Source: Mytilus galloprovincialis
Lineage: Eukaryota; Mollusca; Bivalvia; Mytilida; Mytilidae
Assembly: GCF_965363235.1 (NCBI RefSeq)
Contig: NC_134845.1
Location: forward strand, 20,896,524 to 20,960,523
Direction of reading: 5' to 3'
Length of the DNA: 64,000 bases
Part shown: one piece after another, positions 6,621 to 39,134 of the stretch
Layout: each line of letters starts with the position of its first letter
Position numbering within the stretch: position 1 is the first letter of the stretch
Notes under the pieces: model-generated
What the model was told of the DNA's origin: nothing
What the model saw: only the letters and a program-made list of their open reading frames with translations
The model's database searches: none
Made by a program: the position numbers and the translations under genes

Positions 6621-6896
6621 TCAAATAAGATTAAAGTAATCTTTGCACGAAGAGGTAGAGTCATCGCATTTATGCGCACACTCAAAACATATCACTCGAC
6701 AGTAATTCGTACATCTCCTGTACTCTTTTTCGTGATCATCATTGGGACTGGGACGATAATAACCGGATATACATTCTTTAGAACATCCAAGAGCAGTCGT
6801 AATACATTGCTTTGTGCAGATAACAGCAGATGTTCCGCCTATCAATATCAAGACGATACAAACCATGGTAACACTTGTCCTTAGTTTTAATCCCAT
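6621..6896 (-). CDS. Small secreted peptide with ten cysteines, function unknown
   Basis: A 91-residue protein. I chose the ATG at 6896 because it directly follows a good 3' splice site (TTATTTTCCAG|ATG), which implies a 5' untranslated exon further upstream. Residues 1-24 form a clear signal peptide: a basic start (GLKLR), a hydrophobic core (VCIVLILIGG) and a small-residue cleavage site (TSA|VIC). The mature part of about 67 residues has ten Cys, spaced C-x3-C-x6-C-x3-C-x19-C-x3-C-x3-C-x2-C-x3-C-x6-C, which predicts five disulphide bonds. Repeated C-x3-C pairs are typical of helices tied by disulphides. The pattern does not match the mussel mytilin, myticin, mytimycin or defensin scaffolds as I know them. 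A defence peptide or another extracellular ligand would fit, but this is inference. Confidence 0.75.
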   Translation of the reverse strand: MGLKLRTSVTMVCIVLILIGGTSAVICTKQCITTALGCSKECISGYYRPSPNDDHEKEYRRCTNYCRVICFECAHKCDDSTSSCKDYFNLI

Positions 6897-6910
6897 CTGG
6901 AAAATAATCA
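6885..6910 (-). promoter_or_regulatory. 3' splice site before the ten-Cys peptide exon
   Basis: On the minus strand a pyrimidine-rich stretch ending TTTTCCAG abuts the initiation codon at 6896. This makes the in-frame upstream Met residues unlikely starts, because they would lie in the intron. Confidence 0.6.
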
Positions 6911-6999
6911 AAGTTATAATCAATGTATTTGGTAATGACATCATGTATTTTCAAACCTTTCTCAACATTCAATGTTTCCGTCATCGAAAATCAAAATGA

Positions 7000-10610: not shown

Positions 10611-11343
10611 ATCGTGTTTTTTAAATGGACCCTAATTTATTTTATAATAGTTTTATAGATAAAATCATATTTACCTTCAATTAACGTGCAAATGGATTGA
10701 CCTCGATATTATGACTACTGAAAGTAAGTAAAGTTACAATAAGTTTTAAAAGGAAACTGTAGAAGGATGTACGTCAACATATTAAAACGGAGACATTCAA
10801 GGGCGCCTTTTTGCGCACTTTCATCTCATTGTTGGACATTTGGTGATAGGATTTTTGTAAAATGAAATAACTGCGCATATCGTGATGTGTATTGGTAGAT
10901 CTAAATTTGAGACAATCTTCGTACTTAAAAAAAAAATATTCTTGTATGTCTAATAATTTGATTGGTTAATTGATGGAATTGTTTTGCCAATTTCAGCATT
11001 ATGGCTATTTCGGGGCGGTCAGTTAGTACTGGTGGAGGCAACCTGAATGCCTTTAAGGTGTTTGTATCGACCTGTTTACGCATGGTTACGAATAGTTACG
11101 AGTAAGTTACGAGTATTTTATAGTCCGTCTGTTCTGCACCTTTTATACCTTTCCCTAAATCGTAAAGTATACAATCATATATGTTGGGAAAGTACTTGTT
11201 TCTATACGTAAAGTGGTCAACATAGCTAGTTACAATATATACGTAAAGCAACGTAACATGCCTCAAATAAAATCGTACGCAATACTTAAGTAATTGTAAT
11301 GATACAGAAATACAGAAATAATCCGTAAACACTTAGTAAACTA
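10610..11343 (+). repeat. X1, first copy of the tandemly duplicated X block
   Basis: Nearly identical to 16800-17527, including the 3' half with 'AAGGTGTTTGTATCGACCTG' and 'TTAGTAAACT'. The 78-codon open frames on the minus strand (11096-11332 and 17280-17516) differ at only a few residues, but they resemble no known protein and lie inside the repeat, so I do not call them genes. Ends at the TA target of the inserted element. Confidence 0.9.
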
Positions 11344-11369
11344 CAGTACTTGCAACCTTAGGCGTTACT
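11344..11369 (+). repeat. Left terminal inverted repeat of the 4.6 kb element
   Basis: Twenty-six bases matching the right end exactly in reverse complement. Similarity then breaks down into the shared GATCGG-type motif cluster. Confidence 0.95.
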
Positions 11370-11836
11370 GTTTGACGTGAACTTGACTGATCGGTGAATG
11401 ATCGGTGACGGATGTTTGACTGATCGATGAGTGATCGGTGATCGGTGACCCATAGGATCCGTCAGATAAGTCAAATAACCTATGTGAGAGTTACCCTGAC
11501 AACTGTCACCGATCGATCAGTAAATTAATTTATGCACGGATCGGACGGATACGTATATATTTAAAATTCTTATGTAAACCGAACTCCACAGTTTTTACAA
11601 TCGCTGAACGCGGACCTCTACGAAGACACCTTAATTTACACGTTATAATTTGTAATAAAATTAGTTGCAATAAAAAAGTAAAAATAGTTTAACAGAATAA
11701 GATGCTTAGAACGTTAAATTGTTTGTGTTGATTAATATTTTCGTATTAAATATTATAAACATCAGAGTCATATAATCATAATTGTATTATATGACTCAGT
11801 TAACATGAACTTATTTCTACGAAATTGGTTATTGTT

Positions 11837-14800
11837 GACCGCCATTGGATTTTTGAACTTTTAATAGTTTCGAATAGGTTGTTTTTTCATGAAATTAAAA
11901 GAATGTCAAAGAAATGATATTAAAACTTTGTTCCCATTGTTAAGAATTACCAAAATGAATCTTCTTTTTATCAAATATTGTACTATTTTATTTGCAATCA
12001 GTTATTTTTACCATCTTGAGACAAGTCTTCTAATCAGAATTGAGATATAATGAGAATTAAAATACATAAACTTTTATTTTTGTGGAATAAGAATGCAGTT
12101 ATTGATTTATTTTGATACAAATTATTAACCGTCATATGATTTCAGTACTTTTTGTACATCAAGATTGGCTGTTCTTCATAAAATATGCTTTCTTACAGGA
12201 AAAAGATATAAAATTATTGTACGCGTTTCCTAAAATGCAAATATTGTTTCATTTTATTGAAAATTATTGACCGCCATTGGATTTTTGTACTTTTTATAGT
12301 TGCGAATAGTTTTTTTTCATAAAATTCAAATAATATCAGAAAAATCATACTAAAATTTTGTTTGCATTGTTTAAAATAATCAAAATTATTCTTCTTTTTA
12401 TCAAAAATGATACTATTTTATTTGAAATCAGTTATTTTGATGCATATTATTAACTGTCATATGATTTCAGTACTTTTTGTACATAATGATTGGCTGTTCT
12501 TCATAAAATAATCTTACTTTAAGGAAAAACATATTAAATTTTTGTACGCGTTCCCTAAAATGCAAATATTTCTTCATTTTATTGAAAATTATTGACCGCC
12601 ATTGGATTTTTCTACTTTTTATAGTTTAGAATAGGTTTTTTTCATAAAATTAAAAGAATGACAGAGAAATCATACTGAAATTTTATTCGCATTGTTAAAA
12701 ATAACCAAAATTATTCTTCTTTTTATTAAAAATGATACTATTTTATTTGAAATCAGTTATTTTTACCATCTAGAGACAAGTCTTCTAATCAGAATTGATA
12801 TATAGTGAGAATTAAAATACTTCAACTTTTATTTTTGTGGAATAAGAATGCAGTTATTGATTTATTTTGATGCAAATTATTAACCGTCATATGATTTCAG
12901 TACTTTTTGTACATCATGATTGGCTGTTCTTCATAGAATAATCTAACTTTCAGGAAAAAGATATAAATTTTTTGTACGTGTTGCCTAAAATGCAAATATT
13001 TCTTCATTTTACTGAAAATTATTGACCGCCATTGGATTTTTGTACTTTTTATATTTAAGAATAGTTTTTTTTTCATAAATTAAAAGAATATCAGAAAAAT
13101 CCTACTAAAATTTTGGTCGCATTGTTTAAAATAATCAAAATTATTCTTCTTTTTATCAAAAATGATACTATTTTATTTGAAATCAGTTATTTTTACCATC
13201 TTGAGACAAGTCTTCTAATCAGAATTCAGATATAATGAGAATTAAAATACATAAACTTTTATTTTTGTGGAATAAGAATGTAGTTATTGATTTATTTTGA
13301 TACAAATTATTAACCGTCATATGATTTCAGTACTTTTTGTACATCAAGATTGGATGTTCTTCATAAAATATATGCTTACTTTTAGGAAAAAGATATAAAA
13401 TTATTGTACGCGTTTCCTAAAATGCAAATATTGTTTCATTTTATTGAAAATTATTGACCGCCATTGGATTTTTGTACTTTTTATAGTTGCGAATAGTTTT
13501 TTTTCATAAAATTCAAATAATATCAGAAAAATCATACTAAAATTTTGTTCGCATTGTTTAAAATAATCAAAATTATTCTTCTTTTTATCAAAAATGATAC
13601 TATTTTATTTGAAATCAGTTATTTTGATGCATATTATTAACTGTCATATGATTTCAATACTTTTTGTACATAATGATTGGCTGTTCTTCATAAAATAATC
13701 TTACTTTAAGAAAAAACATATTAAATTTTTGTACGCGTTCCCTAAAATGCAAATATTTCTTCATTTTATTGAAAATTATTGACCGCCATTGGATTTTTCT
13801 ACTTTTTATAGTTTAGAATAGGTTTTTTTCATAAAATTAAAAGAATGGCAGAGAAATCATACTGAAATTTTATTCACATTGTTAAAAATAACCAAAATTA
13901 TTCTTCTTTTTATTAAAAATGATACTATTTTATTTGAAATCAGTTATTTTTACCATCTAGAGACAAGTCTTCTAATCAGAATTGAGATATAGTGAGAATT
14001 AAAATACTTCAACTTTTATTTTTGTGGAATAAGAATGCAGTTATTGATTTATTTTGATGCAAATTATTAACCGTCATATGATTTCAGTACTTTTTGTACA
14101 TCATGATTGGCTGTTCTTCATAGAATAATCTAACTTTCAGGAAAAAGATATAAAATTTTTGTACGTGTTGCCTAAAATGCAAATATTTCTTCATTTTACT
14201 GAAAATTATTGACCGCCATTGGATTTTTGTACTTTTTATATTTAAGAATAGTTTTTTTTTTCATAAATTAAAAGAATATCAGAAAAATCCTACTAAAATT
14301 TTGGTCGCATTGTTTAAAATAATCAAAATTATTCTTCTTTTTATCAAAAATGATACTAATTTATTTGAAATCAGTTATTTTGATGCATATTATTAACTGT
14401 CATATGATTTCAGTACTTTTTGTACATAATGATTGGCTGTTCTTCATAAAATAATCTTACTTTAAGAAAAAACATATTAAATTTTTGTACGCGTTCCCTA
14501 AAATGCAAATATTTCTTCATTTTATTGAAAATTATTGACCGCCATTGGATTTTTCTACTTTTTATAGTTTAGAATAGGTTTTTTTCATAAAATTAAAAGA
14601 ATGACAGAGAAATCATCCTAAAATTTTGTTCGCATTGTTTAAAATAATCAAAATTATTCTTCTTTTTATCAAAAATGATACTATTTTATTTGAAATCAGT
14701 TATTTTTACCATCTTGAGACAAGTCTTCTAATCAGAATTGAGATATAATGAAAATTAAAATACTTAAACTTTTGTTTTTGTGGAATAAGAATGTAGTTAT

Positions 14801-15310
14801 TGAATTATTTTGATACAAATAATAACGTCACTTGATTTCAGTACTTTTTGTACATCATGATTGGCTGTTCTTCATAACACATGCTTACTTTAAGGAAAAA
14901 GATATTAAATTTTTGTATGCGTTCCCTAAAATGCAAAAATTTTTCCACTTTACTGAAAATTATTGACCGCCATTGGAATTTTGTACTTTTTATAGCTTAG
15001 AATAGTTTTTTTTCATAAAATTAAAATAATGTCAAAGAAATCATACTAAATTTTGTTCGCATTGTTTAAAATAATAAAAATTATTCTTCTTTTTATTAAA
15101 GATGATACTATTTTATTTGAAATCAGTTATTTTACCATCTTGAGACAAGTCTTCTAATCACAATTGAGATGTAATGATGTACTTTTTATTGTTTAGGAGT
15201 AGTTATCTTTTTTATTAAAAAAAAATACTATAAGAAAAATATAATGTAATGTTGTTTGCATTGTTTAAAATTATTTCTATTTCTTGTTAAAAAATACAGC
15301 AGTTATCTTT
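11837..15310. repeat. Satellite with long and short monomers in a higher-order pattern
   Basis: The marker GACCGCCATTGG starts near 11837, 12269, 12594, 13024, 13456, 13781, 14211, 14537 and 14965. Intervals alternate between about 430 (L) and about 325 (S) bases in the order L S L L S L S L. The long unit differs by an extra ~105 bases containing 'CATCTTGAGACAAGTCTTCTAATCAGAATT'-like text and 'TTGTGGAATAAGAATG'. The S-L-L block starting at 12269 recurs at 13456, a higher-order period of about 1187. A decayed monomer runs to about 15310. Non-coding. Confidence 0.9.
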
Positions 15311-15953: not shown

Positions 15954-15955
15954 TA

Positions 15956-16800
15956 ACAGTAATACTTAATATAAAATTGTTACGAACAATTTCCGAATTC
16001 TTGCGAGCAGTTTACGAATGTTCACACGTTGTTGGAGACTGTAAACTAGCGCTTAATGGTATTTACGGATTGTTTCGAGTTGTCTACGGAAAAGTTAATC
16101 CGTTTCAATCGTAAGAAGATTTTTCACTTGACAATAACGTTGCCTCTCGTTTCATATCCCCTTACGCTAGGTATGACGAGTTATTAACGGATGATTGCAA
16201 TTGACTATATATATACAAGCTGGTAATCTGTAAACTTGTAAACAAAATCCGTAACAGATCTAGAGAAAGTGAAAGAGGCAAATGGCACGCTTAAAAGGAA
16301 ATAAATTCATCATAGATACTAGGATTAAAATTTTATATTTGCGCCAGACGCGCGTTTCGTCTACCAAACACTCATCATTGACGCTCGAAAACAATTGTTT
16401 AAAGGCCAAATAAAGTACGAAGTTGAAGAGCATTTAGGACCAACGATTCCTAAAAGTTTTGCCAAATACAGCTAAGGTAACCCATTCCTTATATAGAAAA
16501 ACCTTAGTATTTCAAAAAATCAAAATTTTATCAACAGTTAATTTATAACTATGAAGATATCAATAAAAACTGAACAAGTCAACATATAAATGCTGACTTC
16601 TGGGCTGGTGATACCCTCAGGGAATTAAAAGTCCACCAGCAGTGGCATCGACCCAGTGGTTGTAAATGATCACATCATAGATACCATGAACTAATTTTGA
16701 CTTCATGTAACAAAGGAATTCGTGAAAACAACTGCTTTACGATTTAAAATACAAACGGTCTTACGTATACTCAACAACCGCCTTTTTTAGTGCGTTTTGT
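15956..16800 (+). repeat. Y1, first copy of the tandemly duplicated Y block
   Basis: Nearly identical to 17528-18370 ('AGTAATACTTAATATAAAATTGTTACGAAC' onward). Separated from X1 only by the 4.6 kb element. Contains a nested mussel repeat at 16300-16690. Confidence 0.9.
16300..16690 (+). repeat. Nested mussel repeat with GCGCCAGACGCGCGTTTCGTCTAC core (in Y1)
   Basis: A dispersed mussel repeat carrying 'GCCAGACGCGCGTTTCGTCT', 'AAATAAAGTACGAAGTTGAAGAGCAT' and 'CACCAGCAGTGGCATCGACCCAGTGG'. It is bounded by direct copies of ATCATAGATAC near 16308 and 16675. Y0 at about 945-965 lacks it, so the insertion postdates the X0-Y0 split. Confidence 0.85.
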
Positions 16801-17527
16801 TTTTAAACGGACTTTAATTTATTTTATAATAGTCTTATAGATGAAATCATATTTACCTTCAATTAACATGCAAATGGATTGACCTCGATATTATGACTTC
16901 TGAAAGTAAGTAAAGTTACAATTAGTTTCAAAAGGAACCTGTAGAAGGATGTACGTCAACATATTAAAACGGAGACATTCAAGGGTGCCTTTTTACGCAC
17001 TTTCATCTCATTGTTAGACATTTAGTGATAGAATTTTTGTAAAATGAAATAACTGCGCATATCTTGATATGTATTGGTAGATCTAAATTTGAGACAATCT
17101 TCGTACTTTATAAAAAAAAATATTCTTTTATGTCTAATAATTTGATTGGTTAATTGATGGAATTGTTTTGCCAATTTCAGCATTATGGCTATTTCGGGGC
17201 GGTCAGTTAGTACTGGTGGAGGCAACCTGAATGCCTTTAAGGTGTTTGTATCGACCTGTTTACGAATGGTTACGAATAGTTACGAGTAAGTTACGAGTAT
17301 TTTAGAGTCCGTCTGTTCTGCACCTTTTATACCTTTCCCTAAATCGTAAAGTATACAATCATATATGTTGGGAAAGTACTTGTTTCTATATGTAAAGTGC
17401 TCAACATAGCTAGTTACAATATATACGTAAAGCAACGTAACATGCCTCAAATAAAATCGTACGCAATACTTAAGTAATCGTAATAATACAGAAATACAGA
17501 AATAATCCGTAAACACTTAGTAAACTA
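16800..17527 (+). repeat. X2, second copy of the X block, with the empty TA site
   Basis: Matches X1 throughout. It joins Y2 directly at ...TTAGTAAACTAACAGTAATAC, the undisrupted form of the X1/Y1 junction, which fixes the ends and target duplication of the 4.6 kb element. Confidence 0.9.
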
Positions 17528-18390
17528 ACAGTAATACTTAATATAAAATTGTTACGAACAATTTCCGAATTCTTGCGAGCAGTTTACGAATGTTCACACG
17601 TTGTTGGAGACTGTAAACTAGCGCTTAATGGTATTTACGGATTGTTTCGAGTTGTCTACGGAAAAGTTAATCCGTTTCAATCGTAAGAAGATTTTTCACT
17701 TGACAATAACGTTGCCTCTCGTTTCATATCCCCTTAAGAGTGTACGCTAGGTATGACGAGTTATAAACGGATGATTGCAATTGACTATATATATACAAGC
17801 TGGTAATTTGTAAACTTGTAAACAAAATCCGTAACAGATCTAGAGAAAGTGAAAGAGGCAAATGGTACGCTTAAAAGGAAATAAATTCATCATAGATACT
17901 ATGAATAAAATTTTATATTTGCGCCAGACGCGCGTTTCGTCTACCAAACACTCATCATTGACGCTCGAAAAAAATTGTTTAAAGGCCAAATAAAGTACGA
18001 AGTTGAAGAGCATTTAGGACCAAAGATTCCTAAAAGTTTTGCCAAATACGGCTAAGGTAACCCATTCCTTATATAGAAAAACCTTAGTATTTCAAAAAAT
18101 CAAAATTTATCAACAGTTAATTTATAACTATGAAGATATCAATGATAACTGAACAAGTCAACATATAAATGCTGACTTCTGGGCTGGTGATACCCTCAGG
18201 GAATTAAAAGTCCACCAGCAATGGCATCGACCCAGTGGTTGTAAATGATCACATCATAGATACCATGAACTCATTTTTACTTCATGTAACAAAGGAATTC
18301 GGGAAAACAACTGCTTTACGATTTAAAATACAAACGGTCTTACGTATACTTAACAACCGCCCTTTTTAGTGCGTTTTGTATTTTTCTCTT
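17528..18390 (+). repeat. Y2, second copy of the Y block, including the nested repeat (17880-18250)
   Basis: Matches Y1 with few differences, such as an extra 'GAGTGTAC' near 17738. It carries the same nested GCGCCAGACGCGCG repeat at the same place, so that insertion predates the duplication. Confidence 0.9.
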
Positions 18391-25190: not shown

Positions 25191-27055
25191 TTAAGTCTGT
25201 TTTGTAACTCGAACATCTATTGGTGTTAGTCCTTTTTGATTTTTACAATTTGTTACTGCTTTATGTTTAATTAATAGTTTCACTACTTCCTCGTTTCCAA
25301 ATTCGTAAGCAATATGAAGAGGCGTAGATCCTTGTTTATCTGCCTTGTTTATATAAGCGTTATTCAAAATCAAAATTGCAGCAATATTACACCTGGCATG
25401 TTTACTTGCATAATGCAGAGGCATTTTCCTTTGTTTGTCATCCTCATTTATGGATGCTTTCTTTGTAACAAGGTACTTTACAACTCCAAGATGTCCCTTC
25501 TCACAAGCTATATGGAGGGGCGTCATACCTTTATTGTCTTTTGTATTCATGGATGCATCATTTTCAATTAAATATTTTACGATTTCTTCGTTCCCGGCTT
25601 CAGATGCATAATGAAGCGCTGTTCTATTATACACACCCGTTTTATTCACGGCATCTTTATACTTTATAAGACATTGAACACATCGCAAATGACCATCTTT
25701 GCATGCTAAGTGAAGGGGTGTTTCTCCCATAGAGTCTTTTTTATTAACTTCTGGACAGTTTTCGTGTTTCAAAAAATATGCTAGAAAATCTGAATATCCT
25801 AATGATGAAATAATATGAAGAACGTTTGATCCAGTTGTGGCGTCAACAAGATTCTTTGATTTTAAATGTTTTTCAAGGTAACCAACAAATGTTACTCTGT
25901 TATTCGGGTACTGGAAAAGTGTATTTGATAAAACATCAAAAAACAATTTATTATTCATATCGGATGTAAGACGTTGATAAAATTCACTTTCCATACTGTA
26001 CTGTACTTTTACAGTATGCGCACAGTCATTTCCTAGTGTTTGGGATAGCCGAAGTTTCTCCTTTATAAACCTACTGCTGCTGTGTGATAGAATACTCTGC
26101 ATAAAAAATTCTCCAATACATTCTGCGACAATATCAAATAATTCAAGACAGAGAAAGGACAAGAAAGTGTCGTCCTCCTTGATGAATTCTCCTTTTAATG
26201 ACATAAACGTTTCACGCAACATATGTTTTGATGGGCATTGATTGAAACATGATTCCTTCAAAATGTCTTGAAAAATGATGTCAGTCTCCTCAGAATAGCT
26301 CGAATCACAAAGCTTGCTAATTTCAACTTTATTATTCATGACTACAAGAATGGCTAAAGCAAGATAACCAATATCCGATTTTTTTCGCATGTTATTAATT
26401 TCAGCGGATATAATATCTATTGGATAATAAAAGCATTCTAATACATTGTCTTTGTTATTTGACGAACACATAACAGGATAAAAATTATACAATAACAAAA
26501 CATCCTCAGAAATTGAATTTGGCGGATCAGATTCAAAGTATAACTTGAATATTTTTCTTCGTTCTTCCAAAGTCAATCGGAGGTTTTCAGAAATAAGATT
26601 TTTGTGTATTAATGATACATGCTTTCTAAATGATTCAAATTTCTGTGCGTATGATTGAAAAATATATGTTCTGCATGTTATAAGTACTTTTACGGTAAAA
26701 CTTTGTGTTAGTATTGAATTTATAGTTGAGCCGCACTTTTTCAATTTTTCAGTAATGTCAGATACGTTTGACGAGTATTTTCCTAATATGTCATCAATAA
26801 GAAAAAGTTGTCTCTGATTTCGATTAAAACGTCTTTCAATGTCTTCAGATTCTGAAGCAAAGATTATTTCATAGCCTTCTTTTTCGAGCTTTGCACCTAT
26901 GTAATATGCAATAATAGTTTTTCCAGATCCGAAGGGTCCAGTTATCAAAACGCAACGGTTTTGAGTAATTGCCAGTAATATTTCCTCAGATGCATGTGTA
27001 GGTTCAAATCTAATTAAAGAATCCTTCAACCTTCCCATTTCGTTGGTTCGTTTAC
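25191..27055 (-). CDS. Receptor exon 7: STAND P-loop NTPase plus ankyrin repeats
   Basis: This exon encodes 620 complete residues and the stop. The start is the 3' splice site ATTTAAAG|GTAAACG, which completes a Gly codon; the ATG at 27038 is internal. Numbering from that Met, Walker A is GPFGSGKT (34-41), Walker B is QLFLIDDILG (77-86, Asp82-Asp83), and a sensor-1-like VLITCRTYIF lies at 118-127. This combination fits the nSTAND3-type NTPases found in large numbers in bivalves. A helical winged-helix-like and superstructure region runs to about 400. Ankyrin repeats begin near 403 (degenerate), then about 437, 470, 503, 537 and 570 (for example GETPLHLACKDGH and GMTPLHIACEKGH), with a partial repeat from 603. 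The NTPase would switch between ADP- and ATP-bound states, and the ankyrin repeats would bind partners or hold it off. No frameshift or missing key residue is seen. Confidence 0.95.
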
Positions 27056-27814
27056 CTTTAAATAAAAAATTGTAAAACCATTTAATTGAAACACTTTTCG
27101 GGACAAAAATTACTTAGTACTCTTTAAAGGCGTGCATTGAGTTTCTGGTATACATGTACTTCATGTTTATACACTTATTGATCCACTCGATGCATGTACA
27201 TTACAAGTGCATGTGTTTTGAAGTACAATTTAGCCATTCAAATATCTAAAACGTTCTGTTTCTCTATTTATAGCATAATTGAATACTTCATGGTAACCGT
27301 GAGATTTGATACAAAGGCAATCTGTGAATTGATTCATAAAGCATATTTTTTTTTCTTTACGTTGATTTTTGTTTACGTAGTAACAGTACTTTTTGAAGAA
27401 AGGCATGACAAATGCACAGTATGAATAAAAGAAAGCAAAACATTGTAATGTACTAATTTTCGACGTAAAACATTGTTATTCATGATTTTTGTAAGACCTT
27501 AAAAAAATCACATAACAGAATGAATCACATATTTCTTCGTAACCTGTAAATTTACACATACTGAATCATGTTTGAGGGATCAGCTTTAGCATTTGATTGT
27601 AACTCATGAATATTATTTATTAAAAGACTTTTTTTGTATTTATTGCCATACTGATAGCGTCGTTATCATTAAAATCGGTATTATTGTTTTACAATGAAGA
27701 AGATTAATTTATATGCACCCTATTTTAAAAGATTATAAATGATATCAAAACTGTTCATTAATCTTTTTTAAGGGTAGAGAAAATTAGGATTAAGAATAAA
27801 AAAGAGAATCATAC
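27056..27814. other. Intron 6, no other feature seen
   Basis: Plain A+T-rich intron. The 76-codon plus-strand frame at 27194-27424 has no recognisable features. Confidence 0.6.
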
Positions 27815-27877
27815 CTATTGCTATTTCTGGTAGCTTCTGCAGTTCGTATCCTTTTGTGTTGTTTTGACAAATATCTT
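27815..27877 (-). CDS. Receptor exon 6: cytoplasmic linker, with tandem AAGAAG acceptor
   Basis: Sixty-three bases, phase 1 on both sides. Donor is ATAG|GTATGA. The acceptor reads TTTTTAAGAAG, two usable AG sites three bases apart. Use of the first gives Glu-Asp-Ile-Cys and of the second Asp-Ile-Cys, so both keep the frame. It encodes DICQNNTKGYELQKLPEIAI, polar and unstructured in appearance, linking the membrane helix to the NTPase. Confidence 0.8.
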
Positions 27878-28670
27878 CTTAAAAATTAAATAATCATTTG
27901 AATGAAACGAGTGAAAGTTATCATAAAAAAACCAACTAAAAATCAGATAATTATTTAAAATATCTATACATCTTAAAAACCTTAAACAAACATGAAAGTT
28001 AAAGATATTTCAAATATTATGACAATTACACCAATAACCACAATACCGAATTCAAAATAGAAAGTCCTTTCTTTAAAAGCAAAGTCAAAAACCTAAAAAA
28101 AATTTAAACGAATGGAAAACAACTGTCATTCCCGACCTGGTACATGCATTACCTTGTGTAGAAGTGACTTTTCCCACACAACCGTGCTTTGGAATATACA
28201 CGGAAATTTAATGAACCAAATTTAATCAGGAATTAAAAAGCTTTAAATTTCTGTATTTCAAATGAAAAAGGACAACTGAAATATTTCAAATAATTCTTAA
28301 CAATCAAAAATCATGAACAAAAAATCACAGGATAAGAATGAAGAAAAATATACACTAATACGGTTAACTGTATTTCAATTACAAGACGCTGAAACCGCGG
28401 CATAACGGTCAAGTAAAATTAGTTAATAAAAATTCTGAAAGGAATTACAATTTAATAGTTTTCTTTTCCTTATGCAATTTTCTGTCAAATAAATATTAGG
28501 AATATATTTATTATATTGCTATTGGAAAGTTGTACTTCTCTATCTAAAGGAAATAAACTGCATTAGATTATTTTTAGAATTACAAAGTCAAAGAAGCAAG
28601 TGCAAAATGTAACTGCAAATATAACACTAATGTAACCATTTCAGTTTGATAAATAGGTAATTTTACTTAC

Positions 28671-28700
28671 CATTAAATAATACAAGGATCACACATAAAC
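28671..28700 (-). CDS. Receptor exon 5: microexon, inner half of the transmembrane helix
   Basis: Thirty bases only, between GTTTTCAG| and |GTAAGTAA, both strong splice sites. It encodes LCVILVLFN after the split Gly codon. It continues the hydrophobic run begun in the previous exon, giving about 24 hydrophobic residues. Skipping it would keep the frame but shorten the helix. Confidence 0.85.
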
Positions 28701-29699
28701 CTGAAAACATATTTATTTCATTGAAATATTAAAGTTAAGTCTTTTAATTTTGTCCTTACTGCTAAAGTATGTATGATAAAAGGCACAAGTAAATCTTCAA
28801 ATACAAATATTAATCATACTGAACATTTATTTCAGAACTGTAGACAATAATGGCGTCATAGGCTGTGAATCATTACATCTTTAGATTTACATATACGACA
28901 TTAATATGATAAAACTACTTTTTTTCTTTTTTTATTGCAAAAGTAGTTATGAGCTAATGTGTACTCAAAACAACTGTTTGAAAATTGAAAAAAAAAATCT
29001 TAATTTTTTAAATGACACTTGTTGCACCTGTTTAGGGGTTTAGTGGTAAGTTGTATCTTTTCTAACGGTTTTACAGTTTAAATATAATGCACAATCGACC
29101 GAGACATGGATTGATAAAAAAGATAAAACCAGTGTTGCATGACAGATTTATGTTATTTGAAAGATTTGAACAACTAAGCATAGAAACCTGGATTAACGTA
29201 TTGTTTGAAAGAAGAGTGTTTCGTCTTTAAATGATGAAGCTCGAATAAAAAAAAGTTGCGTACGAAGATGAAGAGCATCGGGGACAGGTTGAAGAGTACG
29301 GAGTACTCAGAATATGTCTTGGATTTAAGAAATCGTTTGTCCTTTTTCTCGTTTTCTTTTTGGCATTTGTTTGTTATTACAGAACACTCATGCAAACATG
29401 GATTCAATATTGCCAGTAAGGATCTAACACTCCTACAGTGTTTTGGCAATTCAAGCTTGGATGAGCATGTTAAGATGCATAATTTCAAAATCAACATATA
29501 AAATGTATCAGATATATATACGCAAATACGGTAAATATTATTTCTTAACCACAAGATATTAAAACAGACCTTCGATAATCAGGGATCAAACGGTCAACTT
29601 CATATTATATTTTTGTTTACTCTGAGCTTAGACGTACTCTGTTACTTTGTTTAAAATTTCTAACATATTTGCCTTAGGTGTTTAAACCTTATTGACAGT

Positions 29700-30145
29700 G
29701 ACCATTCAATTCGCTTTTTTATGCATTTTTTGTGTTTCTCCGTAGCATATGACATTGCTTTGTACGTATACATCCCGTCATTGTGTTATTGTTTACGTAT
29801 TTGTTTTTTTCTTATAGTGATTAAGATAATTATACAATGTTGACTGCTGTACCCTTATTTTTGACATTCGTACCTATCATGTCTGTTTGTTTTGTTCACA
29901 CATCGATGTCAATATAATGGAATTTTATGCGACTGTCATACAAGTCAGAGATTTAGCTAGCAATAAAACCAGGTTAATTCCAAAATTTCTACTTTATAAA
30001 TTGCCTGTACCAAGTCATGAATATAACAGTAGTTTTCCATTCGTTTAGTGCGTTTTAGCTTTTGATTTTGCCATTTGAATAGGGACTTTCCGTTTTGAGT
30101 TTTCCTCGGAGTTCAGTATGTTTTGATTTTACATTTTGTTTAATG
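29700..30145 (+). repeat. M3-family mussel repeat in intron 4
   Basis: 29870-30140 matches 18440-18700 block by block. 29755-29800 ('CATCCCGTCATTG') resembles the tail of the reverse-transcriptase-linked repeats. Confidence 0.75.
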
Positions 30146-30289
30146 ATTATGATTCTTAAAACCAAATAGGAATATATATGAAGTTTATGATAAGATGTGT
30201 TTATACTGTATAATAATGTAAAGATAGTATCAGTAAAATATTTAAAACTTAAATATAAAAATGTCTTATTTCTCTGAATTCACAGATCT

Positions 30290-30665
30290 GTACTTTGTGT
30301 CTTCTGTGTTTTTGGTGGTTTTTTTCCAAGTAATTTGTATCGATCTGAGGAGTTAAAGTTGGTTCTGATGTTGTGCTGTTACACCACTGTCCCTGGTTAT
30401 GGGTTGATTAGCGGGCTCGCAAACCGGGTTTATTCCCAGCCCATCAAACTCTGTGTGTCCTGTCCAAATTCATGATATGATTTTTCAGTTTTTCTATCCA
30501 ACATCATTTTTGTTTTTTACATGAATAAGTCCGTCAGTTCTCTTATTCTCTCATTTGAACTGTTTCACTTTTGCCATTTTATGGCTTGCTTTACGGTAAA
30601 GATTTTGCTCATTGATGAAGGCCGTACATTATCTTAGAGTTTCTAATCTGTTACGTCATTTTACT
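30290..30665 (-). repeat. M1-family mussel repeat, reversed and diverged
   Basis: 'CTTTGTGTCTTCTG', 'ATCGATCTGAGGAGTTAA', 'CTGTTACACCACTGTCCC', 'CTGTGTGTCCTGTCC' and 'GAAGGCCGTAC' follow the reversed order of 1803-2345. Confidence 0.65.
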
Positions 30666-30736
30666 TTAAATATCTAGGCCAATCCTTTTTTCACCTGTCT
30701 ATAAATATTATTTAAAAAATAATTGAATTGTTTTAC

Positions 30737-30814
30737 CTATAACCATCAACAAAAGAAGCGAAACTGGTATCAAAACCGAAATCTGTTGGATATGAGACCA
30801 TCCGTTGACAAGCA
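30737..30814 (-). CDS. Receptor exon 4: outer half of the transmembrane helix
   Basis: Seventy-eight bases, acceptor ACTTTTATTTCAG|TGC and donor ATAG|GTAAAA, phase 1 on both sides. It encodes LVNGWSHIQQ followed by ISVLIPVSLLLLMVI, a hydrophobic stretch completed by the next exon. Too far from the N-terminus to be a signal peptide, so a membrane anchor is the natural reading. Confidence 0.87.
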
Positions 30815-31044
30815 CTGAAATAAAAGTTTTAAATGTTCAATCAGTTTCATTATTTATTACGATAGAAAGTATTATTTTAACTGTATTCATGTTTCATTTG
30901 TGTTTGGTTTTGAATAAAAAATCTTCCAGGAATATTGTGTTCATATATTCGCTAGTTTTGCGCATCATTTTTTTTTATTGAATTGTGTTTATTTTTATGG
31001 AATTTGGCGTACTTATTCTTCTGCATAGTTCTTGAATATTAGTA

Positions 31045-31700
31045 CAGAGCAAACATGAGGTGCTAAATTTGTACACCATATCGGGATTACGACAATGAAG
31101 GTCTCTTCGGTGATGTTAGGGATCGAAACAGTATTTGGAAGGCCATATTATTTACCTCAATTTAGAATAGACTCTTAAATTTTAAATAGTCGAAATGGAA
31201 TGAAAGGATCATATAAACTCGAAGAAAAGTATAATAGAAGCCCTAACGGAAAGATATAAACAAGTCTAAATTGAAAACAACATTCAAACCTTTGATTGCG
31301 TTGGATAAAAACCGCAATTTTTATACGTGCGCATGTAACACAAATCTTGGAAAAGGAATCTAAATACAGCAAAAACAACATTTTCAAAAAGACAGAAAAG
31401 AGAAAAGTATGTTTTAGCAAAACAAATATGACTAAAAGGTCGAACATCTGATATTCCTAAACCCTGATGGCTGCCATTGACGGTTGCCAAATAAATTGAT
31501 CACGAGATGTAACACAGATCTATATTATTAATTTACTACCCAACAAAAAACAATAAAATTGCGGTGAATTTTGTATACCACAAACATAAGGTGCAAAAAT
31601 GTGTACACCATATCCGGATTTAGACAATTCATGTCTCTTTTGTGATGCTAGGGATCGAAACGGCATTTGGAAGGCTATATAATTGACCTACTATATATAC
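31045..31700 (+). repeat. Two direct copies of a ~115-base repeat inside intron 3
   Basis: 31055-31160 and 31590-31695 share 'AAGGTGC-AAA', 'TGTACACCATATC.GGATTA.GACAAT', 'GTCTCTT..GTGATG.TAGGGATCGAAAC' and 'ATTTGGAAGGC.ATAT'. The intervening 31170-31330 belongs to the first copy's longer repeat. Confidence 0.75.
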
Positions 31701-32056
31701 ATTCGTTTCATATTACAAGATCAAATGTTTGTTTAAAAAAGCTCATTCGGTCTAACCAAAAAGCATACTAATCACATGAGTTCGGGAAGTATTAACACGA
31801 AATGAAATTACTCAAAAAACTTAATAGACTTATCAAGAGTTCTGACATTTGAAAGTGTAATTGTTTTTGCTAAAGTATATCTTTTAGAAGAGGTAGGTAT
31901 TTCTGTTCTAGTACTACGCTTTTGCAAATATGAAATCTACAAGAGAACAGAAATACGTATAATTTTGTTTTCTGAATAGTAGAAATATAAAGAACACCTT
32001 TATTGAAAGACGACGGCATTCCGTCAATTTATTTTAAGTTAGCAGATTATACCTAC

Positions 32057-32119
32057 CATTATGATAATCTGGAGTGTTGTCTTTCGCATCATTCGGGTGG
32101 ATCGGGTTTTGTGTATTGT
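32057..32119 (-). CDS. Receptor exon 3: extracellular juxtamembrane stalk
   Basis: Sixty-three bases between ATTATTAGAG| and |GTAGGTAT, phase 1 on both sides. It encodes NTQNPIHPNDAKDNTPDYHN, an Asn-, Asp- and Pro-rich segment as expected for an extended stalk. It is short and lacks a domain signature, so its support is mainly the matching phase and splice sites. Confidence 0.72.
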
Positions 32120-32744
32120 CTCTAATAATTACAAGCATATGCATTTAGTGAAAAATCTAGCAGTGAATGCAAAAAGGCTAATTTTAACAAATTAATCTAG
32201 AAACAAATGAAGATCATTTTTACTTATTTCTTAAACTTCATTCCATACGTTGCTTGTTTGTTGAATATTATAACTAGTTCTTTCATACTTCACTAGTGGG
32301 AGGATTTCCGCTGAAACGGTCATTTAGATCCTAACCCCATCTGGAAAGTGTATACAATACATTTCCAAACCAGGTTTATGGACCTCCCTATTTTAGAATT
32401 TACCTTATTTTGTTATACATTTTTTTAGTTAGTATTGTTTTTCCATCAATTTTCAGATTAATTTTCTGCAGTAACTATTTAGACGATTCACTAGCAGTCG
32501 ATTCTGTTTGCAGTATTATTCAGTATTTTTTTTAAACAATTAAATGTGTTGTTGATCTGTACAGTCAAATACAAATCAACTGAACACATGTTTGTTTATT
32601 GTAAGCAAATGGCCTGAACTAAATGTACAGCAGTTTACTAGTATGAAAATTAACGGAAAGGTGAACATGAATTAATCATATTTTCATGACTTGTGAGAGC
32701 TGAACAGATCTTCCCATTTGAATGGTTTTTCACTAATATTTTTT

Positions 32745-32885
32745 GGGGCCCTTGATTGCTTGCTGTTTGGTGTTAGCCGATGCTCCGTGTTAAAGGGCGT
32801 ACCTTGATCTATAATAGTTTACTTTTATAAATATTTTCTTGGATGGAGAGGTGTCTAATTGGCATCATACCACATCTTCCGTTAT
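32745..32885 (-). repeat. M5-type repeat fragment, reversed
   Basis: 'CTCCGTGTTAAAGGGCGTACCTTGATCTATAATAGTTTACTTTTATAAAT' and 'GGCATCATACCACATCTTCC' are the reverse of the 40205-40325 copy. The 80-codon minus-strand frame overlapping it is not a gene. Confidence 0.75.
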
Positions 32886-33249
32886 CTTCTAAACGACCGT
32901 TCCATACTGAAATTTGTTTACCAGTGAATATATCATACTCATAATCAGAGAACTTTGAAAAATCGTTTTGTTTTGTTAAGGTATTCCATTTAGTTGAAAT
33001 CAGATATTTTATGTTGTTTTTTTTTAATTCAATTTGTTTTTGTATTTGCATACCAACATGTCCTTGAATGTTGAAATGACATGAAACGTAAATACAAGGT
33101 AAGAGAAAAAAACTTTATGATTATACTGTTCTTATGATAATTTATGAAACTACATAATTAGATCCTTTTTTGTCATTTATTGAAGTTGTTATCGTTCTTT
33201 GGCAACTGAAATAATAATATAAGTAGTATTCCAAACGTGTACAATGTTT

Positions 33250-33800
33250 ATAAAAAAGGAAGATGTGGTATGAAGCCAATGAGACAACTCTCCACAAGAG
33301 ACAAAAGGACACACAAATTAACAGCTATTAGCTACCGTATGACCCATAGTGCATAGAAACCTATAAAAGACACCGAAATCAAAAATGTAAAACAATTCAA
33401 TCGGGAAAACTAACGGCTTTTTAATGTACAAAAACATTAACAAAAAACCAAACATGTAACACAGCAACAAACGACAAAAGCTTAATTACACGCTCCTGAC
33501 TGGGGACAGGCATATACATACAGAATGTGGCGGGGTTAACATGTTAAAGGGATACCAACCCTCCCCTACCCTGAAACAATGTTGTAACAGTACAATTTAA
33601 GAAAAAAAAAACCTATGAAAATCAGTTGAAAAAGGCGTAACTTAATAGATGGATATAAATAGAAATATATATCACAAAAACACATGGACGTGACCTGGTA
33701 ACAAAAAAAAATGACACTCAGTACTGATCTGAGAGTACCCACAGTTACTAACAGCTAGTTCAAAGTAAATACCAACTAATATAAAACGAATTATGACTAA
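33250..33800 (+). repeat. M1-family mussel repeat in intron 2
   Basis: Nearly full-length copy: 'GATGTGGTATGAAGCCAATGAGACAACTCTCCACAAGAGAC', 'TTACACGCTCCTGACTGGGGACAGG' and 'ACTGATCTGAGAGTACCCACAGTTACTAACAGCTAGTTCAAAG'. Confidence 0.85.
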
Positions 33801-34890
33801 ATTATCAATCGGTACACATCCAGCATTTGTCTATTTATAAAAATTCCATTGATTGAAAGTCCAAACAAATTTATTTATAACCCTGAATATGATTACCACT
33901 AATTTTCTTGTGAACTTGATGAAGTCAGAGCAACATGCAGCATTTGAAAGGCTGTTTGATATAAAAGATGATTATTTACAATCTCAATATCTCTTTGTTT
34001 TGTAAAGAACAATTAAGTCAATTAAGTACATGTATGTTAAGTTATCTTACACGTTACCAGCTAAGGGACATCTTGATTTATCTAGCACATTTCGTACTGG
34101 TGCACAACTATAATCTGAAAATCAAACTTTTTATATTAACTCTCATTTTTGAAATGTAAACATAGAAAATACTGTTGCAGTAGTACAAATTTTAATAAAT
34201 ATCTATGTACATCGTACATTATGTTCATGTTGATGTCGTTTACTCACATGCTTTACTCAGCCATTTCTGTACTTTCAATTTTTGTTTCTCGTCGATTCTA
34301 ATACATTGATATTCACAATTTGTGTAAATCAAAAGTAGATATGAATCATAAATATCAAAAGTAGAATTTGTTTTCAAAAACATTAAACCGAGATTTTCCT
34401 ATTGTTATTAACCCTATTTACATCTGAATTCAAAGAGACACTTGCGCAATACACCCATTTGTCAATTAAAGTCATAGTAAAGCAATATTTTTTAAAGAAT
34501 GCAAAGTTGTATCTTTTGTAACTTTGACATTGCTCTTAAAGTGATGACGACAATATCAATCGAATATCCCTTTCCTCTCACCATGATTAAGTTGCATCGA
34601 TATAAATCTAAGTTTCCCTCAAGTAATTCATAGCTCTATATTTTTAGGCAAATTCTATCAAATTCTAGCAACTGTGACATTTTCCATTTTTTTTTAGAAT
34701 TCAATACACATATTCTCCTCTTCTAATTACAATGTACTTCCATCTTTATAAATTTCATTCGTCATCCAGTAATCATATGTTTCAGACAAACTAACAAAGC
34801 GACGACTTTATTCTTCCGACAATATTTGTTCGTGCTAATATTATAATTCCGTAACTGCTTAAGGTAAATACATTATTGAATACTTTCTCC
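33800..34890. other. Intron 2, remaining part: nothing seen
   Basis: A+T-rich, no supported open frame or repeat family. Confidence 0.55.
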
Positions 34891-34893
34891 TAC

Positions 34894-35196
34894 CTGGAGA
34901 CAGGACATATCCACTAATGCACTGTCTGATGAAACAAGAACAGTCTTCTTCAGAGGGAATACAGAAGCATGTATGTTTTGGTCTAGTTACAAAATCATAT
35001 CCCTTTGTGTAGTCACATCTACATGAACTGTCTGCTTTAGTTGTACCCAAGGAATATAGTATTTGTCCTTCGCCGGAGCAAATTGATTTTTCAAATTTGC
35101 AAATGTTATTTCCATAAGTCCAGAAAATAAATGGTTGATATCGACCACTCACACATGGTACACCTTCCAAACTTCCAACTATTTGAATTTTATACC
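34894..35196 (-). CDS. Receptor exon 2: cysteine-rich ectodomain, main part
   Basis: 303 bases, acceptor CTGTTGATAG|GGTATAAAA, donor CTCCAG|GTAGGAG, phase 1 on both sides. It contains ten Cys within 101 residues, with characteristic pieces GRYQPFIFWTYGNNICKFEK, SICSGEGQILYSLG, CRCDYTKGYDFV, KHTCFCIPSEEDCSCFIRQC and GYVLSP. I recognise this arrangement (QPFIFWT, CSEEGQ, CRCDY..., CxCxPxEEDCSC) from uncharacterised bivalve membrane proteins. It has no accepted name that I know. Likely a ligand-binding or adhesion module held by disulphides. Confidence 0.9.
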
Positions 35197-35861
35197 CTAT
35201 CAACAGTGGATATATATTTTTTTTAATGTCGGTATGCTTAAATAAATGACAAATATCGGTGTGCACATATTACATTTGTTATACAGAATCTACGCTATCT
35301 GAGCCCTTTTTCTCTTAAGGCTGTATAGTAACATTTACAGTTTCCAATTTAAAACAAGTGTCCCTCATTCTGAAATTTGAACAATTCAAAATACTCTGTA
35401 TATCGTTATTTTAAAGAATATCATGGCTTGAAAGAGGTGCTTGTGTGGTGTCTGGAATTAACAGGCTTTCTTCGTTTTCTAAATAATTAAAGTATTTGGC
35501 GGTCATTAAAGTATAGGTATATTATCTCTATATAGCTATATCTATATAACGTCTAACAATAGCAACACTCAATATCCAATATATTTAGGCGTGAATAAAC
35601 CGATTCACTTACTGCATTAAAGTTATATGAATGTTTAAGAATATAACGTTAACACGCTAGTTGATACATTAAACATTTTAAATACATTAGTGAACTCAAA
35701 CACATGAATGTATTATATATATGGCACTGAACTTTAAAACCCTAAAATATTCAGTGAACACGTATCACCATTTTACCTGACAGCAAAGATTTCTACAGAT
35801 TTCAAAATGAAGAGAGCTAAATCTAAAAACTTTCAAGTACAGCTGTATAAGTTCGACTTAC

Positions 35862-36042
35862 CAGGCGCTTCAAATTGTGGCCCGTCTCTGCATGCTTCGA
35901 CGTTCTGCATTTTGTTTGCATCATACAAACAATGATATCGGTTAGATATGTTACAAAAATCTGTTGCTCTTAAATCCCATTGCGAATGAAAAGGGCAATG
36001 TAATGTTAAAGCAGTGTCAAGTCCCTCAAAAGGGATTGGTAT
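35862..36042 (-). CDS. Receptor exon 1b: N-terminal part of the ectodomain
   Basis: 181 bases from TATTTACAG|ATACC to CCTG|GTAAGT, phase 0 in and phase 1 out. It encodes IPIPFEGLDTALTLHCPFHS, then QWDLRATDFCNISNRYHCLY and DANKMQNVEACRDGPQFEAP, with four Cys. The series TLHCP.H.QW.LRA..FC is the usual beginning of this bivalve ectodomain, right after the signal peptide. The missing signal peptide must be upstream, in the minus-strand direction. The frame stays open upstream of the acceptor for about 25 codons, so a slightly longer exon is not excluded. Confidence 0.82.
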
Positions 36043-39095: not shown

Positions 39096-39134
39096 CATTA
39101 AAAGTAGAAAGACACTCCTCATCCTATCGTTCAT
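39096..39134 (-). CDS. Candidate signal-peptide exon of the receptor gene
   Basis: ATG at 39134, thirteen codons (MNDRMRSVFLLLM), then ATG|GTATGT, a good 5' splice site in phase 0. Phase 0 is what exon 35862-36042 needs. Joined directly, the hydrophobic run becomes SVFLLLMIPIPF, a short but possible signal peptide; a further exon between them may be missing. The implied intron of about 3 kb contains the Harbinger-type element at 37381-38806. Other signal-like starts nearby (38249, 38064) have the wrong phase or lie in transposon DNA. Confidence 0.35.

Follow-up and report, generated by a model that had tools for sequence, protein, structure and literature searches.

Work on STAND switches usually concerns soluble sensors. 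Such sensors of the nSTAND3 and NLR types combine an NTPase carrying Walker A and Walker B motifs with C-terminal superstructure-forming repeats. The gene described here lies in a 64,000-nucleotide stretch of the Mytilus galloprovincialis genome (the window, C8:20896524-20960523; positions of features are counted from its first nucleotide), on the minus strand. Sequence analysis confirms that its exons join in frame into one predicted membrane protein, composed of an ectodomain, a helix, an nSTAND3 NTPase domain and ankyrin repeats. The NTPase and the C-terminal repeats of this protein follow the plan of the soluble sensors, but the ectodomain and the helix occupy the place where those sensors usually have an effector domain.

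Surface receptors coupled to a STAND NTPase are already known. In the part of their paper devoted to these proteins, Kaur et al. 2021 (PMC8195603) describe ~50 bivalve lineage-specific proteins of C. virginica, with a Cys-rich ectodomain, a helix, and DED and TRADD-N domains; the variable C-termini may hold STAND NTPases, HEPN, ankyrins or propellers, and the authors suggest that the proteins are triggered from outside. The Cys-rich ectodomain, the helix and a variable inner module are shared with the window protein, but the oyster family carries DED and TRADD-N after the helix, and the window protein matches neither in Pfam. General protein searches with the window protein or its ectodomain returned no named oyster protein among the matches, the two ectodomains not having been compared directly. 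AjNLRC4 of a sea cucumber is presented in the relevant sections of PMC8699970 as a protein with immunoglobulin (Ig) domains outside, helices, and NACHT inside, which by experiment binds microbes, dimerises on infection and drives phagocytosis. It resembles the window protein in being a membrane receptor with a STAND-class NTPase inside, and differs from it in the Ig ectodomain, in NACHT instead of nSTAND3, in the presence of two helices and in its echinoderm origin. A second sea cucumber membrane receptor with a STAND-class NTPase, AjNLR-new (PMC13133943), is described with NACHT outside, unlike the window protein, and ankyrins do not appear in the described parts of either protein (PMC8699970, PMC13133943). 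The Aplysia Toll-like receptors (TLRs) with Roc and COR, as outlined in PMC9334734, also couple a molluscan surface receptor to an inner nucleotide switch, but with a leucine-rich repeat (LRR) ectodomain, a TIR domain and a GTPase in place of nSTAND3. The first-pass annotation of the window had proposed a direct surface-to-STAND pathway; the architecture holds, while the general idea was already present in the portions of PMC8195603 and PMC8699970 cited above. In the open-licence literature, no paper was found that pairs nSTAND3 with a transmembrane segment or with a bivalve, and the nSTAND3-ankyrin module under a very large mussel ectodomain family would be a new version of such a receptor.

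Eight exons were placed within 36042-25191, all with AG acceptors, with GT donors up to the last exon, and in a single frame that closes with a stop codon at 25191; the strand, frame and splice sites agree with the first-pass annotation, which had counted seven exons. Of the seven inner joins, the one after exon 3 is in phase 2 and the rest are in phase 1. The ectodomain is encoded by the first three exons. Exon 1 (35862-36042) provides its N-terminal part with 4 Cys and shows 67% identity to P0003 in tblastn (E 3.7e-23; P numbers denote relatives collected from databases). Exon 2 (34894-35196) provides the core with 10 Cys and the motifs CRCDYTKGYDF and PSEEDCSC, and is one of 150 scored matches in the same genome. 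Exon 3 (34051-34114, donor GT/GTAAGA) contributes the final two Cys, so that the 14 Cys reported earlier are right for exons 1 and 2, and the whole ectodomain has 16. An end of exon 3 at 34058 was dropped in favour of 34051 because the frame of exon 4 was then poor by eye; by arithmetic, an exon 3 ending at 34058 could join exon 8 directly in frame. The short extracellular stalk is encoded by exon 4 (32057-32121) and most of the transmembrane helix by exon 5 (30737-30814), which is probably completed by the 30 bases of exon 6 (28671-28700). Exon 7 (27815-27877) is a probable cytoplasmic linker, similar to the linker of P0004, for which in-frame skipping is possible. Exon 8 (25191-27055), identified by Pfam, tblastn and its open frame, holds the NTPase, a helical region, the ankyrins and the stop codon.

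A likely signal-peptide exon, MNDRMRSVFLLLM, is located outside this interval, at 39096-39134 of the same strand. This candidate has a hydrophobic start and a GTATGT donor in phase 0 and resembles the N-termini of the Mytilus relatives P0001 and P0003; the filters applied to the 20 kb upstream let through one other distinct candidate besides it; a scan under stricter length limits listed no signal-exon candidate. With this exon the protein counts 895 residues, and 882 without it.

In tblastn with Mytilus proteins many matches fall on exons 1, 2 and 8 and one on exon 3 (E 2.6e-4), and elsewhere in the window no match to the collected Mytilus proteins is found at E 1e-3. The interval from exon 3 to exon 8 contains 119 exon-like candidates; the best of them is exon 4, the second a variant of exon 4, and the third exon 5. 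Exons 4 and 5 score 41 and 38, versus 36 for the best of 113 opposite-strand controls; the next-best candidate of the same strand also scores 36. The chain 4-5-6-7 is the first of 254 in-frame chains, with a score of 109 versus 106 for the runner-up. A tandem paralogue, L039 (C8:21047300-21057299), ~125 kb away on the same strand, keeps exons 2, 3, 4 (at 7846-7782 of its stretch), 5 (the helix exon, at 5729-5655, with the same donor) and 8 in the same order; the L039 stretch compared does not extend to exon 1. Eight blastn matches connect the two loci, five on these exons and three in introns. Exons 6 and 7, for lack of a match in this paralogue, and the signal exon are the weak parts of the model.

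The nSTAND3 domain (26538-27008; PF20720, E 1.5e-28) scores 99.9 bits against a cut-off of 27.2. Its Walker A motif GPFGSGKT (26916-26939) starts at residue 314, and G314, G319 and K320 are invariant in 12 aligned rows; in the Walker B motif LFLIDD (26790-26807, residue 358) the first aspartate (D362) is invariant and the second nearly so. The sequence ITCRTY follows at residue 400, with R403 invariant across the same rows, which fits what we take to be a mark of STAND proteins, an arginine after the strand that follows Walker B. The C-terminal superstructure-forming repeats are present as ankyrins (25194-25820; Ank_2, E 3.1e-50), about six and one partial repeat as counted by eye. Both motifs and the ankyrin repeats noted in the first-pass annotation are therefore present, and the HMM search that it had called for finds nSTAND3, above its Pfam cut-off, and Ank. 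For the window protein that search gave no NACHT row at E 0.01 and no LRR row, ankyrins standing in the place of the latter; the protein would accordingly not be classed as an NLR proper. Pfam recognised no effector domain. Searched as a single sequence against the PDB, the nSTAND3 part gives generic P-loop rows (best E 0.0084), and in the search with a 21-row profile the best 60 of 522 matches fall over the ankyrin part. PADLOC reports PDC-S73 over the NTPase (E 3.6e-13) and PDC-M72A over the ankyrins (E 3.3e-30), both given without description.

The 16 Cys of the ectodomain lie between residues 29 and 190 and may form disulphides. No Pfam model scores above its cut-off for this region, and TNFR Cys-rich repeats give no row at E 1, where two other sub-threshold rows appear; the single match among PDB sequences (E 0.6) was judged to be due to chance. 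The one strong hydrophobic segment of the protein, as stated in the first-pass annotation, spans residues 233-251 with a mean Kyte-Doolittle (KD) value of 3.08. The 40 residues before it contain one Lys or Arg and the 40 residues after it contain seven, which fits the positive-inside rule and a type I single-pass protein. A second segment, at residue 571 of 895 (558 of 882), touches KD 1.64 and lies within the helical region. Taken together, a probable signal peptide, a Cys-rich part predicted outside, one helix, and the NTPase and ankyrins predicted inside constitute a well supported set of topology signals.

The order ectodomain-nSTAND3-Ank, for which a survey had been proposed at first pass, occurs in predicted proteins of five Mytilus species (M. 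californianus, edulis, coruscus, trossulus and galloprovincialis). Together with the paralogue, this indicates that the coupling to nSTAND3 is common to several Mytilus species and was duplicated as a unit nearby. The ectodomain is carried by 58 of the 64 database proteins collected, and every protein with a named source comes from Mytilus. In an alignment of 12 proteins, 15 of the Cys columns show no variation and the 16th almost none; the window protein has all 16 Cys together with the CRCDYT.GY and EEDCSC motifs of this family. A segment with KD of at least 1.6 follows the ectodomain in 14 of 19 nSTAND3 rows, window included. A quick tree built from 59 ectodomains places 17 of the 19 nSTAND3 rows on one branch (SH-aLRT 88, not starred), made up of two starred clades with the window gene in the smaller one. 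According to a warning of the program, the union of these two long branches could be spurious; P0017 and P0044 lie outside this branch. P0044 is a remote member (23% identity) whose single open frame (1053 codons) covers the ectodomain, nSTAND3 and Ank; its contig has 3324 bases, as would suit a cDNA (spliced transcript) or an intronless gene; its NACHT score is 20 bits, under the cut-off of 26.7. In P0045 (M. edulis) the ectodomain and helix are followed by PF06701 and PF00569 domains, presumably MIB/HERC2 and ZZ, ahead of nSTAND3-Ank; this model may represent yet another fusion, or the annotation may have run two genes together.

Both halves of the protein are under constraint. Over the 100 codons of the ectodomain core the ratio of non-synonymous to synonymous substitution rates (dN/dS, NG86, window gene versus L039) is 0.27, and over the 618 codons of exon 8 it is 0.33; within exon 8, nSTAND3 has 0.28, the helical part 0.40 and the ankyrins 0.30. 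The values for exon 4 (1.4) and exon 5 (0.64) come from 21 codons each, too few to weigh. L039 has GPFRSGKT as its Walker A motif, and its last-exon frame is intact (630 residues).

With chances that we put slightly above even, the protein is a single-pass type I surface receptor that signals from outside to inside via the nSTAND3 switch, with the ankyrin array in the cytoplasm. We rank this reading first because a probable signal peptide, a Cys-rich ectodomain, a stalk and a single helix make up the anatomy of a receptor, and because AjNLRC4, in the parts of PMC8699970 that describe it, offers a precedent. Ligand binding or clustering of the ectodomains would gather the NTPase domains, ATP binding would fix these as an oligomer, and an effector would be drawn in by the exposed ankyrins. 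The ankyrins would have to recruit it, since the window protein has no recognised effector domain of its own. That ligand binding is passed across the membrane to the NTPase is plausible, as one of several readings, and an immune role may follow from it.

Several observations weigh against this reading. Exons 6 and 7 have no blastn match in L039. The models of P0005, P0006, P0017 and P0052 are without a helix, and P0044 is borderline with a KD of 1.59. Exon 8 has its own early Met, and the annotated protein P0012 starts near that point, hence a soluble form is possible. The locus could then have two products: exon 8 would mostly be translated from its own Met, giving soluble nSTAND3-Ank, and the exons for the ectodomain and the helix would be spliced on in some transcripts only or would end elsewhere. 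Five 'lgn' frames (P0007, P0010, P0011, P0013 and P0016) also begin in the part equivalent to exon 8, although these could be genomic contigs cut at an intron, and exons 5 to 7 are symmetric in phase 1, which makes in-frame skipping possible. Full-length models in five species, and P0044, speak for a joined product instead, as do the stalk and helix exons kept in L039, and we regard two products as improbable. Moreover, the database matches (lengths 485-1543 searched) include no near-identical M. galloprovincialis protein, so the window copy may be unannotated or modelled otherwise. The same absence would be expected of a decaying or unexpressed copy, intact by chance and with its function lost, in a large family of which some members hold stops (3 of 150 ectodomain exons). 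Such decay is very unlikely for a gene with 895 open codons, GT-AG at every join, intact Walker motifs and a dN/dS of ~0.3 to its paralogue.

The pattern of conservation also bears on the direction of signalling. The mean identity over pairs of five close sequences is 70% for the ectodomain, 61% for nSTAND3, 57% for the helical part and 53% for the ankyrins. Against the other nSTAND3 clade the corresponding values are 47-49, 31-36, 24-30 and 34-37%, and against P0044 they are 42, 19, 15 and 24%. In both comparisons conservation is highest in the ectodomain, whereas the ankyrins rank last among the folded parts only in the set of close sequences. Such an ectodomain would be unlike a fast-evolving binder of microbes, a further point against the outside-in receptor. 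Its conservation suggests that the ligand or partner is itself conserved, perhaps a self or damage signal, and speaks against a microbial arms race. The reverse reading is compatible with it as well: sensing would be done by the ankyrins, and the ectodomain would anchor or serve as output. The protein would in that case be a membrane-tethered cytosolic sensor, with the ankyrins sensing inside, the NTPase oligomerising, and the ectodomain and helix acting as an anchor or as an output that clusters ectodomains for neighbouring cells or co-receptors. In STAND proteins the output is usually N-terminal and the sensing repeats C-terminal, an order that such a sensor would keep. The ranking among the five close sequences is in its favour, as are the longer ankyrin arrays in the other nSTAND3 clade (for example, 10 PF00023 stretches in P0008 versus 4) and the occurrence of the same ectodomain on unrelated inner modules. 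However, in the comparisons with the other clade and with P0044 the ankyrins do not fall below nSTAND3 and exceed the helical part, which reduces the weight of this explanation; their dN/dS is near those of the ectodomain core and nSTAND3, and a constant ectodomain is also compatible with a shared outer ligand. We consider a tethered cytosolic sensor unlikely, and retain the outside-in receptor as the preferred reading.

The genome search (1.385 Gb) yielded 210 candidates for the ectodomain core exon, of which 150 were scored as matches, the one in the window included; 147 of these are free of stops, and many copies cluster on the same chromosomes. The nSTAND3 profile gave 682 first-look candidates, and all of the 22 scored are above the cut-off. 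The same profile gives a signal in 14 of 14 named prokaryotes used as a control, above the cut-off in seven, and the raw candidate count thus tells little. The great expansion of nSTAND3 in bivalves invoked by the first-pass annotation is compatible with the 682 candidates, with the reserve that 22 were scored and that the control prokaryotes respond as well.

The inner parts of the ectodomain proteins comprise nSTAND3 with ankyrins, Ig with Roc-COR, HEPN_DZIP3, and Ig with ankyrins. P0015 (Ig-Roc-COR), P0038 (HEPN_DZIP3) and P0031 (Ig-Ank) have a 16-Cys ectodomain homologous to that of the window protein, from which they differ in the inner module. The helix after the ectodomain is clear in P0038 (KD 2.47) and P0031 (2.19) and not in P0015 (1.19), and the HEPN domain of P0038 barely passes (27.5 versus 27 bits). 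In P0033 (M. coruscus) the ectodomain and a hydrophobic segment are followed by a long stretch of low-complexity appearance, with a C-terminus that is propeller-like by eye and has no Pfam match. At L043 (C8:54575100-54585099), picked because the genome profile search had shown an nSTAND3 match there, an ectodomain exon is followed ~6 kb on by an nSTAND3-Ank frame on the same strand. At six further ectodomain loci (L040, L041, L042, L044, L045 and L046), tblastn found no partner module within 10 kb when the 64 collected proteins and that of the window served as queries; L042 contains a frame that is reverse-transcriptase-like by eye. Judged from these matches, the window gene belongs to a large mussel family that pairs one ectodomain with various inner modules.

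In the rest of the window, Rfam gave nothing at the gathering score, and ten other open reading frames, out of 217 of at least 55 residues, gave nothing above the cut-off when compared with Pfam. A frame at 6624-6950 (minus strand) encodes a small secreted-looking Cys-rich peptide (MVCIVLILIGGTSAVICTKQC...), without a Pfam match and antimicrobial-peptide-like by eye only. An AT-rich tandem repeat array with periods of ~325-430 bases extends over 11831-15177. Direct repeats of 734-859 bases with 96-97% identity pair 15954-16804 with 17526-18383 and 10618-11348 with 16800-17533; these repeats are perhaps recent copies of a mobile element.

As a tentative proposal, to which we give somewhat less than an even chance, the ~150 or more ectodomain genes would form a receptor system in which the 16-Cys ectodomain stays constant and is combined with exchangeable inner parts, either nucleotide switches (nSTAND3-ankyrin, Roc-COR) or HEPN modules. 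One type of signal from outside would act by STAND oligomerisation in one branch of this system and by GTPase or RNase modules in other branches, and the window gene would represent the STAND branch, a class of surface nSTAND3 receptors so far undescribed. A family that hard-wires a conserved ectodomain to a STAND switch would allow one to ask if the switch is thrown across the membrane, and the presence of the same ectodomain on Roco and HEPN modules makes swap tests possible. Such a family would also bear on how filter feeders without antibodies read outer signals.

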